Assembly: GCA_029778075.1 (NCBI GenBank)
Contig: JAKORA010000058.1
Span: 1-38,592 of the forward strand
Origin: Bacillota bacterium
GTDB lineage: Bacteria > Bacillota > Dethiobacteria > DTU022 > UBA8154
Reading direction: 5' to 3'
DNA length: 38,592 nucleotides
Shown here: in pieces, positions 206 to 35,917 of the stretch
How the letters are laid out: each line of letters starts with the position of its first letter
Numbering within the stretch: position 1 is the first letter of the stretch
Position numbers and translations under genes: made by a program
Notes under the pieces: model-generated
What the model saw: only the letters and a program-made list of their open reading frames with translations
The model's database searches: none
What the model was told of the DNA's origin: nothing

Positions 206-302
206 GGGAGTAGCTCGGCGCCTGGTGGGCCGCCCGGACTTCAAATCCGTGTGGTGGGCTGACGAGGTCCACGGTGGGTTCGATTCCCATCTACTCCCGC
301 CA
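206..302 (+). tRNA. selC: tRNA-Sec (anticodon TCA)
   Basis: This is the selenocysteine tRNA that reads UGA under SelB. The acceptor arm GGGAGTAG (206-213) pairs over 8 bp with CTACTCCC (291-298), followed by a G discriminator and an encoded CCA. The anticodon loop CTTCAAA places TCA at 241-243. The T loop TTCGATT is present, the D arm is long, and a large extra arm precedes the T arm. The 97-nt length and the 8-bp acceptor are the usual bacterial tRNA-Sec features and differ from canonical 7-bp tRNAs. The partner genes selA and selB lie about 1.8 kb downstream on the same strand, beyond an intervening minus-strand transporter gene, which supports the call. Confidence 0.96.
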
Positions 303-15773: not shown

Positions 15774-15962
15774 AGGTGGGGTAGAGGTGCGGCAGGCAAT
15801 GAGTAGGCACGGTGAAAGCAGGGACTTGATGAATCGTGCGGAAAGGTGCCGCCGCCGAAGTTTTTAGCTTTTCCCGCAAGCTAAAAGCTGGTTCTTCAGT
15901 GAACAACTGATGAACTGTCACCGGGGAGAAGCCCTTTTTCCCGGTGGAGCGCTATCTCACTA
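15774..15962 (+). promoter_or_regulatory. Lysine riboswitch (L box) aptamer
   Basis: The conserved lysine-riboswitch blocks are present in order: AGAGGTGCGGCAGGCAATGAG, GAAAGGTGCCGCCGCCGAAG, GCTGGTTCTTCAGT, ACTGTCACCGGGG and GGTGGAGCGCTATCTCAC. The P1 stem forms between GTGGGGTAG (15776-15784) and CTATCTCAC (15952-15960), nine pairs including two wobbles. It lies directly before lysA, the last enzyme of lysine synthesis, which fits. Lysine binding should stabilise P1 and favour the terminator downstream. Confidence 0.93.
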
Positions 15963-33338: not shown

Positions 33339-33788
33339 TTGCGAGCAGTTGTCCAGAGAGCGGGAAAGTCACTGGTGGAAGTGGATGGAGCAGTGGTCGG
33401 CGAAATTAACAGGGGACTGGTTGTTTTTGCCGGCATAGGCGAGGATGATGGAGAGGAGGATTGCCGGTATCTTGCCGATAAAATCGCCGGCCTGCGTATT
33501 TTTGAAGATGAAACGGGCAAAATGAACCTTTCCCTGGAAGAAGCCGGAGGAGAGGTTTTATGTATCTCTCAGTTCACTCTTTACGGAGATTGCCGCAAGG
33601 GACGGCGTCCTAGCTTTATTAACGCCGCTTCTCCGGAAAAGGCGGTTTATCTTTATGAAAAACTGTGCAGCCTGCTGGCAGACAAAGGCCTGAAGGTAGC
33701 GAGAGGTAAATTTCAGGCTAAAATGAGAGTAAAGGTCGATAATGACGGGCCGGTAACCATTCTTCTGGACAGCAGGAAGCTCTTTTAA
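33339..33788 (+). CDS. dtd: D-aminoacyl-tRNA deacylase
   Basis: Dtd removes D-amino acids, and glycine mischarged on tRNA-Ala, from tRNAs. The protein is 149 residues, the standard size. It starts [16 protein letters not shown], has the active-site [17 protein letters not shown] near 77-93 and the cross-subunit motif [10 protein letters not shown] near the end. The track start at 33273 overlaps relA by 62 bases. TTG 33339, with AAGGGCGGGTGAG before it and four bases after the relA stop, gives the expected N-terminus. relA and dtd are neighbours in many Firmicutes. Confidence 0.95.
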
Positions 33789-33797
33789 ATATGAAAA

Positions 33798-33918
33798 TAG
33801 GGGTGGCGAAGTTTGGTGCTCGCTTCAAGGTTCGCTTGAGGCAGGTTTTGCAGCTCAGCTCGGGCTCTCGATTGGCCTTCCCGGCAGAGCTCACTTCCAT
33901 GTTCGCGCTGCCGGCGGC
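33798..33918. repeat. Direct repeat, copy 1 (121 bp)
   Basis: This segment, from TAGGGGTGGCG to GCTGCCGGCGGC, recurs at 34036-34157 with about six differences including a one-base indel. It starts ten bases after the dtd stop. Two possible RNA stems are seen: CTTCAAG/CTTGAGG around GTTCG, and CCGGCAG/CTGCCGG around about 20 bases. No coding frame is supported. Confidence 0.85.
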
Positions 33919-34035
33919 AGACGTCCTATGAAAATGGAGCAGCGCTTTGCTGTAGGCGGAGCTCCGGGTTCCGCTCGTAAAGTTCTACGGCTTGCTCAGG
34001 CCTCCGACGACCTACCCGGCCAATTCGCATTAAAG

Positions 34036-34157
34036 TAGGGGTGGCGTAAGGTTGGTGCTCGCTTCAGGGTTCGCTTGAGGCAGGTTTTGCAGCTCAGCTC
34101 AGGCTTTCGATTGGCCTTCCCGGCAGAGCTCACTTCCATGTTCGCGCTGCCGGCGGC
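34036..34157. repeat. Direct repeat, copy 2 (122 bp)
   Basis: This is the second copy of the repeat, in the same orientation, separated from copy 1 by 117 bp of unrelated sequence that contains no gene. It ends nine bases before the stop codon of the minus-strand amidase gene. In the first stem an A-to-G change turns an A-U pair into G-U, so pairing is kept. No transposase or terminal repeats are seen. Confidence 0.85.
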
Positions 34158-34165
34158 GGTGGAGC

Positions 34166-35917
34166 TTATTGGTTGAGGTTGTAGTAGCGGAGTACGGCGC
34201 GATAAAGGGCTTCAGCTGCCAGTTTAAGGCAGTGATCGGAGGCCAGGATCGTCTCATCCACGGCATTGCTGAGAAAGGCCAGCTCTACCAGGGCAGCAGG
34301 CATACTTGTTTCTCTGAGAACATGAAAGGGTGCCTTTTTTACTCCCAGGTTGGGTAGTTTAAGCACGGCAGAGACCTCTTGCTGGATGAGAGAAGCAAGA
34401 TAAAGACTCTGCGGGGATGTTTTTTTGTTTTGATAATAATAAGTTTCCGTCCCTGAAGCATACTTGTTGTTCAGGCTGGCATTGGCATGGATGCTGATGA
34501 ACAGGTCGGCCTTGGCTTTTTCTGCGAGGGCTGCTCTTTCTGCCAGGGTCAGATAGGTGTCATTTTTACGCGTCATTACCACGTTAAAACCCCTGGCACG
34601 CAGCAATTCTTCCAGGTATAAAGAAACTGTCAGATTGACATTTTTTTCTTTTAAACCGCTGACGCCGGTTGCTCCTTTATCTTCCCCACCGTGCCCGGGA
34701 TCGATGACAACAGTGATATTTTGGGATTGGGTTACATCGTAAGCTTTAGCGCTGGAGTTTCCTCTTGATACTATATTAATCGGGGTGGTATACTCACTGC
34801 TGACCCATCCGTACTGTCCTGTTGGGGTGCGGACATAATACCAGCCGTTCTGTTCCTGCTGAATGAGAAGATGGTTTCCGCAAAAAACCCGGCCCGTTTG
34901 AGTATAGTCCAGCCCCGGGCCGGAGCGTACCCTTAAAACATCCGCGGTTACGGCGGCAAGGCGAATAAAAGGATCAGTCCCCTTATTTTCGCTATTCTTA
35001 TCCTCCTCCAGCTTTTGGGTACACCATCCGGCTACCCACCCCTGCCTACCGTCCGGAAGCTCCACCTGCAGCCAATCCTCATTTGTTTTATCCAGGACAG
35101 TAAGAACCATATCTTTGGTAAGTTCCTCAAGAGGTGTGCTGTTTAGCTGCGGCTGTTCCCTCAGGGGTAGATGTGTTGAGGTGACAATCACATTGTAGGG
35201 GAACTGCTCCTCTTCTTCCGCGGATGTTAGCTGCTGATGCGTGGCGGAAGGTGGGGTTTCACTGGCCGCATTAATATCCGGTATTTGCGGTTCAGTACCG
35301 GCTGCTTGAGGTGCAAAAGAGGTGTACTCGTGGTAAATCCAACCGCTTGTTTCATCGGCCAGCCTTACTAAAACCCAGTCGCCTTCATGAAAATATACAG
35401 TAACGGTGTCGTGTAGGTGGAGCTGGTTGATCCGCTGGTAATTTAAACCGGCTCCCAGCCTGACATTAAGCAGGTTGACTGTTACAGTAGCTTTTTCTCC
35501 GATAACAGGAGGTAGCTTGTCCGCCAGGCTGGAGGTAAAACCCGTGTATTTACCGTCCACCCAACCTGTAGTGCCGTCTTTGAGCCTCACCAGAAGCCAT
35601 TCTTTTTCCTGGAACAGCACTTCCAGCGGAGTGCCGGAGGGAAGTCCCTGTATCCGGGTGTAAGAGGTTGAAGGGCCGGTACGGAGATTGAGCAAATTTA
35701 CTTGCACCTCCGTATGAACAGGGCTGCTTACAACTCCGGCTACTGATGAAGTCGCCGGGATCAATAATAATATAAAGATTACTGTCCATATTAAGCTGAG
35801 GAGAAAAAGTTTCCTGTAAGGGGTGCGAACTTTTTTAGGGAAGGTCATACCCTTTAACCGTGTTCCAGGTAAGGAAATACTTAATGAACTGTCATCTGAT
35901 TTAATCGCGTTGGTCAC
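34166..35917 (-). CDS. N-acetylmuramoyl-L-alanine amidase with four SH3b domains
   Basis: This secreted or surface enzyme cuts the bond between MurNAc and L-Ala in peptidoglycan. The protein is 583 residues. A cytoplasmic start is followed by a hydrophobic segment, about residues 34-58 (LFLLSLIWTVIFILLLIPA), acting as signal or anchor. Four bacterial SH3 repeats follow, with NLLNLRTGPSTSY, NLLNVRLGAGLNY, HLPLREQPQLNST and DVLRVRSGPGLDY. The Amidase_3 domain fills about residues 400-583: VIDPGHGGEDKGA, EKNVNLTVSL, SIHANAS and ALVELAFLSN give the zinc ligands and catalytic Glu. The GTG start at 35917 is chosen because GGGAGGG lies six bases before it. It is oriented against its neighbours. A role in spore germination, cell separation or wall turnover is possible. 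Confidence 0.93.
   Translation of the reverse strand: MTNAIKSDDSSLSISLPGTRLKGMTFPKKVRTPYRKLFLLSLIWTVIFILLLIPATSSVAGVVSSPVHTEVQVNLLNLRTGPSTSYTRIQGLPSGTPLEVLFQEKEWLLVRLKDGTTGWVDGKYTGFTSSLADKLPPVIGEKATVTVNLLNVRLGAGLNYQRINQLHLHDTVTVYFHEGDWVLVRLADETSGWIYHEYTSFAPQAAGTEPQIPDINAASETPPSATHQQLTSAEEEEQFPYNVIVTSTHLPLREQPQLNSTPLEELTKDMVLTVLDKTNEDWLQVELPDGRQGWVAGWCTQKLEEDKNSENKGTDPFIRLAAVTADVLRVRSGPGLDYTQTGRVFCGNHLLIQQEQNGWYYVRTPTGQYGWVSSEYTTPINIVSRGNSSAKAYDVTQSQNITVVIDPGHGGEDKGATGVSGLKEKNVNLTVSLYLEELLRARGFNVVMTRKNDTYLTLAERAALAEKAKADLFISIHANASLNNKYASGTETYYYQNKKTSPQSLYLASLIQQEVSAVLKLPNLGVKKAPFHVLRETSMPAALVELAFLSNAVDETILASDHCLKLAAEALYRAVLRYYNLNQ

Follow-up and report, generated by a model that had tools for sequence, protein, structure and literature searches.

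The gap that separates dtd from a convergent gene for an N-acetylmuramoyl-L-alanine amidase-like protein in a Bacillota genome raises the question of what kind of element occupies it. From the letters of the window (the whole stretch analyzed, 38,592 nucleotides of contig JAKORA010000058.1), it had been predicted that two direct repeats, about 95% alike, fill most of this gap, that their edges lie within ten bases of both flanking stop codons, and that the block has no transposase. All of this was confirmed (Table 1). The copies have the same orientation, are 122 bp long and about 96% identical (four substitutions and a one-base indel), and are separated by 116-117 bp. The spacer of 117 bp (B) is, however, also a repeat unit and belongs to the same family as the two flanking copies (A), and the predicted unit makes up just one half of a palindrome; neither feature was visible to the original prediction. 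No match to the repeat pair was found in Rfam at the gathering cut-off, and no plasmid matches to the block were found. The pair is probably what remains of an array in which non-autonomous palindromic DNA elements of the TwoAYGGAY superfamily were nested.

Table 1. Positions of the repeat modules, their neighbors and two RNA genes or elements in the window.
Feature	Position	Strand	Remarks
Selenocysteine tRNA gene	206-298	+	69.3 bits in Rfam
Lysine riboswitch	15774-15962	+	117.8 bits in Rfam
Stop codon of dtd	33786-33788		TAA
A module, copy 1	33790-33921	+	A-a palindrome, left arm; its left end, TATGAAAATAGGGG (33790-33803), is shared with the relative G003
Predicted repeat, copy 1	33798-33919
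Hairpin 1 of A copy 1	33881-33914		CCGGCAG/CTGCCGG; loop is AUGGA on the minus strand
B module (spacer)	33919-34035	+	B-b palindrome, left arm; interrupted at the apex of its own hairpin 1
A module, copy 2	34036-34160	+	Not followed by a right arm
Predicted repeat, copy 2	34036-34157
Hairpin 1 of A copy 2	34120-34153
Stop codon of amidase-like gene	34166-34168		TAA, convergent with dtd

A genome-wide interspersed repeat had been one of two suggestions for the pair, and a search of the genome for further copies supported it. In the window's own genome (G000, a 2.39-Mb draft of 409 contigs, 87% complete) the segment 33790-34160 had at least 81 matches (E 10 or better), and the companion right-hand modules had at least 103. 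Among the fetched loci at least 60 arrays of A/B units were found, which puts the likeness of the two copies in the window far above chance; 54 of 60 consisted of two or more modules, and copies were also present in relatives. All sites that could be scored (52 of 52) were intergenic, with none inside genes. With regard to a possible role as transcription terminators, convergent gene pairs flanked 8 of 35 sites, compared with 18 of 170 background pairs, as counted with a simple gene caller that overlooked dtd in the window itself. No account of the A/B repeat was found in the literature on Dethiobacter-like genomes. The draft assemblies of the studied genomes often break at element arrays. Two arrays of G000 (L066, 2951-3513, and L047, 3615-4311) were located at rearrangement breakpoints: in relatives, the genes that flank them are separated by 11-15 kb or more.

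A and B are the left arms of two related imperfect palindromes of about 300 bp, A-a and B-b, which are nested in one another. In G003, a relative from the window's genus, the A unit is found mostly as a complete palindrome of about 300 bp, which begins with TATGAAAATGGGGTGGCG directly after TTAR and ends with CATTTTCATCCATTGTTGTGACCCGCAGGGTCGTGGCGGTTA. This right end was detected 61 times in G003, whereas its reversed control was detected 0 times. Compared with shuffled sequences, complete A-a and complete B-b folded with z-scores of -2.7 and -4.9, respectively, and the A-B-A of the window with +0.1. Single 122-bp units showed no RNA folding signal (z about 0 versus shuffles) because each is half a palindrome. 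Elements of G003 (L234, L096) also have another small palindromic repeat, GGGGACACACCTCTT...AATGTCCCC, inserted into or next to them. The G003 genome, DeMMO6_36 (L198 and other JAGVAS records), is titled 'Desulfovibrio sp.' but groups with Dethiobacter-like Bacillota, within the genus of the window, and its name looks wrong.

The order of modules in the arrays followed a simple grammar. Neighboring left arms alternated (AB 19, BA 22, AA 0, BB 1), the centers were almost always cognate (Aa 20, Bb 24, Ab 1, Ba 0), and right arms alternated again (ab 23, ba 26, aa 0, bb 2), with three steps from a right arm to a left arm. Nearly all arrays therefore consist of alternating left arms, a cognate center and alternating right arms, a layout that is explained by the nesting of A-a and B-b. 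At some sites B-b is uninterrupted (CCCGGCCAATTCCCATCCATGGTC); elsewhere A-a splits it at the apex of hairpin 1. The insertion of B-b into A-a is less clean, since the A center is partly missing at the B junction, and both nesting junctions and right-end junctions vary among copies. The two paralogous types probably spread into intergenic sites and into each other's centers, which gives arrays such as A-B-b-a or B-A-a-b.

The A-B-A array of the window is the sole multi-arm array that lacks a right arm inside a contig; six similar arrays reach a contig end. This could indicate an assembly error, in which a nested palindrome was collapsed and its right arms were lost, and the presence of one complete A-a in the dtd/amidase gap of G003 is in line with such an error. 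We consider it unlikely: five differences distinguish the A copies, and both flanks continue into the expected neighbor genes. If the array is a genuine remnant, the A-a in this gap probably predates the split of the window's species from G003; B and the second A would then have been added in the window's species, and the right half would have been lost. This history is based on the single comparison with G003, and the assembly of the window's array could be wrong. No element was visible in the dtd/amidase gap of G016, which represents another genus.

Comparison of further orthologous gaps argues for mobility. The gap between a deaminase-like gene and its neighbor holds A-a in G003 and a copy in the opposite orientation in G004, and is empty in G000 and G001; the gap upstream of a maf-like gene is filled in G000 and G003 and empty in G004 and G002. 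Because occupancy of these two orthologous gaps differs among relatives, the element is, or formerly was, mobile. TTA(R) adjoins many left ends and the right end; the empty sites are too diverged to reveal a target-site duplication, and no firm duplication was found.

The elements could be ordinary miniature inverted-repeat transposable elements (MITEs) that share their ends with the DDE-type insertion sequence that moves them. They are gene-free, dispersed and strongly foldable, single elements are about 300 bp long (MITEs are gene-free and under about 600 bp), they carry inverted terminal stretches (TATGAAAATG / CATTTTCATC), and TTA adjoins both ends in many copies. However, the right end has an extra hairpin (GACCCGCAGGGTC) that is absent from the left end, the elements are rich in G+C relative to the window (0.56-0.59 versus 0.49), and neither a partner insertion sequence nor a firm target duplication was found, making an origin as ordinary MITEs rather unlikely. 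Another likeness is to REPINs, or REP sequences with their RAYT transposases, which are also high-copy intergenic palindromes with long hairpins, compensatory changes and tandem clusters (PMC3116915; PMC3733652). REP units, however, are 20-40 bp long with GTAG or CGTC tags (PMC3733652), whereas the units described here are palindromes of about 300 bp with other ends, of two mutually nested types, and no linked RAYT gene was found. Y1 transposases (RAYT) as linked mobilizers were not supported: none was found in the draft of G000, and although one fragment is present in G003 and six in G004, none of the fetched flanks of the Y1 transposases of G002-G004 contained an element. The pneumococcal BOX elements (PMC3049150) are likewise modular, foldable, intergenic and variable in module number, but boxA-(boxB)n-boxC modules stand in a row, whereas here alternating left and then right arms surround a cognate center; this comparison concerns architecture only. 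No obvious gene-bearing (autonomous) element was seen at the 30 of 61 G003 right ends inspected, and neither a transposase nor an autonomous partner was found. A likely mobilizer of the palindromic elements would be a transposase acting in trans that recognizes folded single-stranded DNA, for example during replication, and the elements may accordingly transpose as single strands.

An alignment of 25 sequences across genera of the family revealed a core in which a long stem is capped by two side-by-side hairpins; the complete element would carry this structure on its imperfect palindrome of about 300 bp. In this alignment 95.4% of cells were paired, a value favored by the derivation of the structure from the same alignment, and changes on both sides were present in 23 of 27 pairs, which that derivation does not account for. 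The covariation score was 0.463, whereas shuffles scored 0.165 and slid versions no more than 0.084. Hairpin 1 of this structure corresponds to the second of two stems originally predicted (CCGGCAG/CTGCCGG), which is indeed identical in both copies and was formed by 97% Watson-Crick cells among the G003 copies. The first predicted stem (CTTCAAG/CTTGAGG) was rejected as a conserved feature, with 33% Watson-Crick cells in the same copies; the change to CTTCAGG in copy 2 is real, but in a local stem that is not conserved it provides no evidence for RNA.

It has been documented that template switching is a source of compensatory changes (PMC8794818). Switching between the arms during replication could keep palindromes complementary, so that the covariation would arise in the absence of any selection, and nearly all changes seen here are Watson-Crick on both sides. 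The long stem nevertheless remains imperfect while the cap hairpins and loops are conserved across genera, which suggests some constraint, and a purely mutational origin of the covariation seems to us the less plausible choice.

The core resembles, on the opposite strand, the TwoAYGGAY RNA of Rfam (RF01731; Weinberg et al., 2010, PMC2864571), which Rfam and its discoverers list as a probable RNA with no assigned function (PMC2864571). At E 1e-4 or better, a model of the core, R1, matched 27 of the 98 genomes of the class; G000 and G003 each have at least 33 copies, and the named records that contain the core are Dethiobacter-like Bacillota genomes. The matches are reciprocal: with E below 2e-5, R1 detected 10 of 30 RF01731 loci, at the same place and on the opposite strand, and one R1 match from the same order (L187) scored 47.0 bits against the RF01731 cut-off of 43. 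Copies from G000 stay below this gathering cut-off (L053, 30.1 versus 43 bits) and are therefore assigned to the TwoAYGGAY superfamily but not to the family as a member. Hairpins with AYGGAY loops were frequent on the minus strand of the core (155 in 122 sequences, versus 2 on the plus strand and 7 among shuffled sequences), although A elements frequently have a purine as the final base of the loop and match the motif only loosely. Both kinds of sequence have two adjacent hairpins with AYGGAY-like loops on a longer stem, which in the A/B elements is read from the minus strand, and both are multicopy in Bacillota. RF01731 itself had matches in 50 of 399 Bacillota genomes, many with at least six places, and by eye the palindromic flanks of its copies extend past the Rfam model. 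Unlike TwoAYGGAY as filed, the copies of G000 are organized in nested alternating DNA arrays, and their pairing pattern is not RNA-like.

Folded RNAs tolerate G-U pairs, but not A-C mismatches, on the transcribed strand. Counts of G-U versus A-C were 7 versus 14 in family alignment A1, 40 versus 50 in A2 (103 good rows), 6 versus 6 in the element's own hairpins, and 3 versus 2 in TwoAYGGAY (38 hairpins only). The window also contains a lysine riboswitch, and copies of it in relatives served as the RNA control: in 30 lysine riboswitches of the same class the count was 219 versus 13, or about 17:1, a ratio that is inflated because the control structure came from an RNA folding program that admits G-U but not A-C. 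A1 was treated in the same way as the control, yet had no G-U excess. Since G-U is about as common as A-C, the covariation is strand-symmetric, which fits either selection for a DNA hairpin or correction of one arm by the other through template switching. Judged by these sequence counts, the parity favors a hairpin element of DNA over an RNA, and the other original suggestion, a non-coding RNA element, was not supported. The same test suggests that TwoAYGGAY may really be a DNA element.

A more specific RNA-based proposal is that the copies are transcribed as a structured RNA family whose two ANGGA loops bind CsrA, with many copies acting as a sponge. Binding of CsrA by TwoAYGGAY has been proposed from motif matching (PMC4333381), the minus-strand loops found here are AUGGA, the family is listed as a probable RNA, and the covariation of the core is strong. 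Against it stand the lack of any G-U excess over A-C in the element's own or the TwoAYGGAY hairpins, when the riboswitches show a large one, and the fact that the elements are multicopy, nested and gained or lost at gaps; we regard the sponge as improbable.

With the pair taken as a remnant of palindromic DNA elements, a wider reading has, in our estimate, an even chance of being correct: TwoAYGGAY would be a superfamily, spread across the phylum, of mobile DNA palindromes whose single strands fold, and two subfamilies in the window's genus would target each other's hairpin apex, building nested palindromes of alternating arms. A candidate RNA family with no assigned function would then become mobile DNA, and among orphan 'structured RNA' families a simple comparison of G-U with A-C could tell RNAs and DNA hairpin elements apart. 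The rule of mutual nesting would offer a natural system for the study of target choice by palindromes and of the upkeep of complementarity between arms, and the nested arrays may explain the breaks of these genome drafts.

Apart from the repeats, the window encodes a selenocysteine tRNA (Table 1); the organism therefore probably makes selenoproteins.
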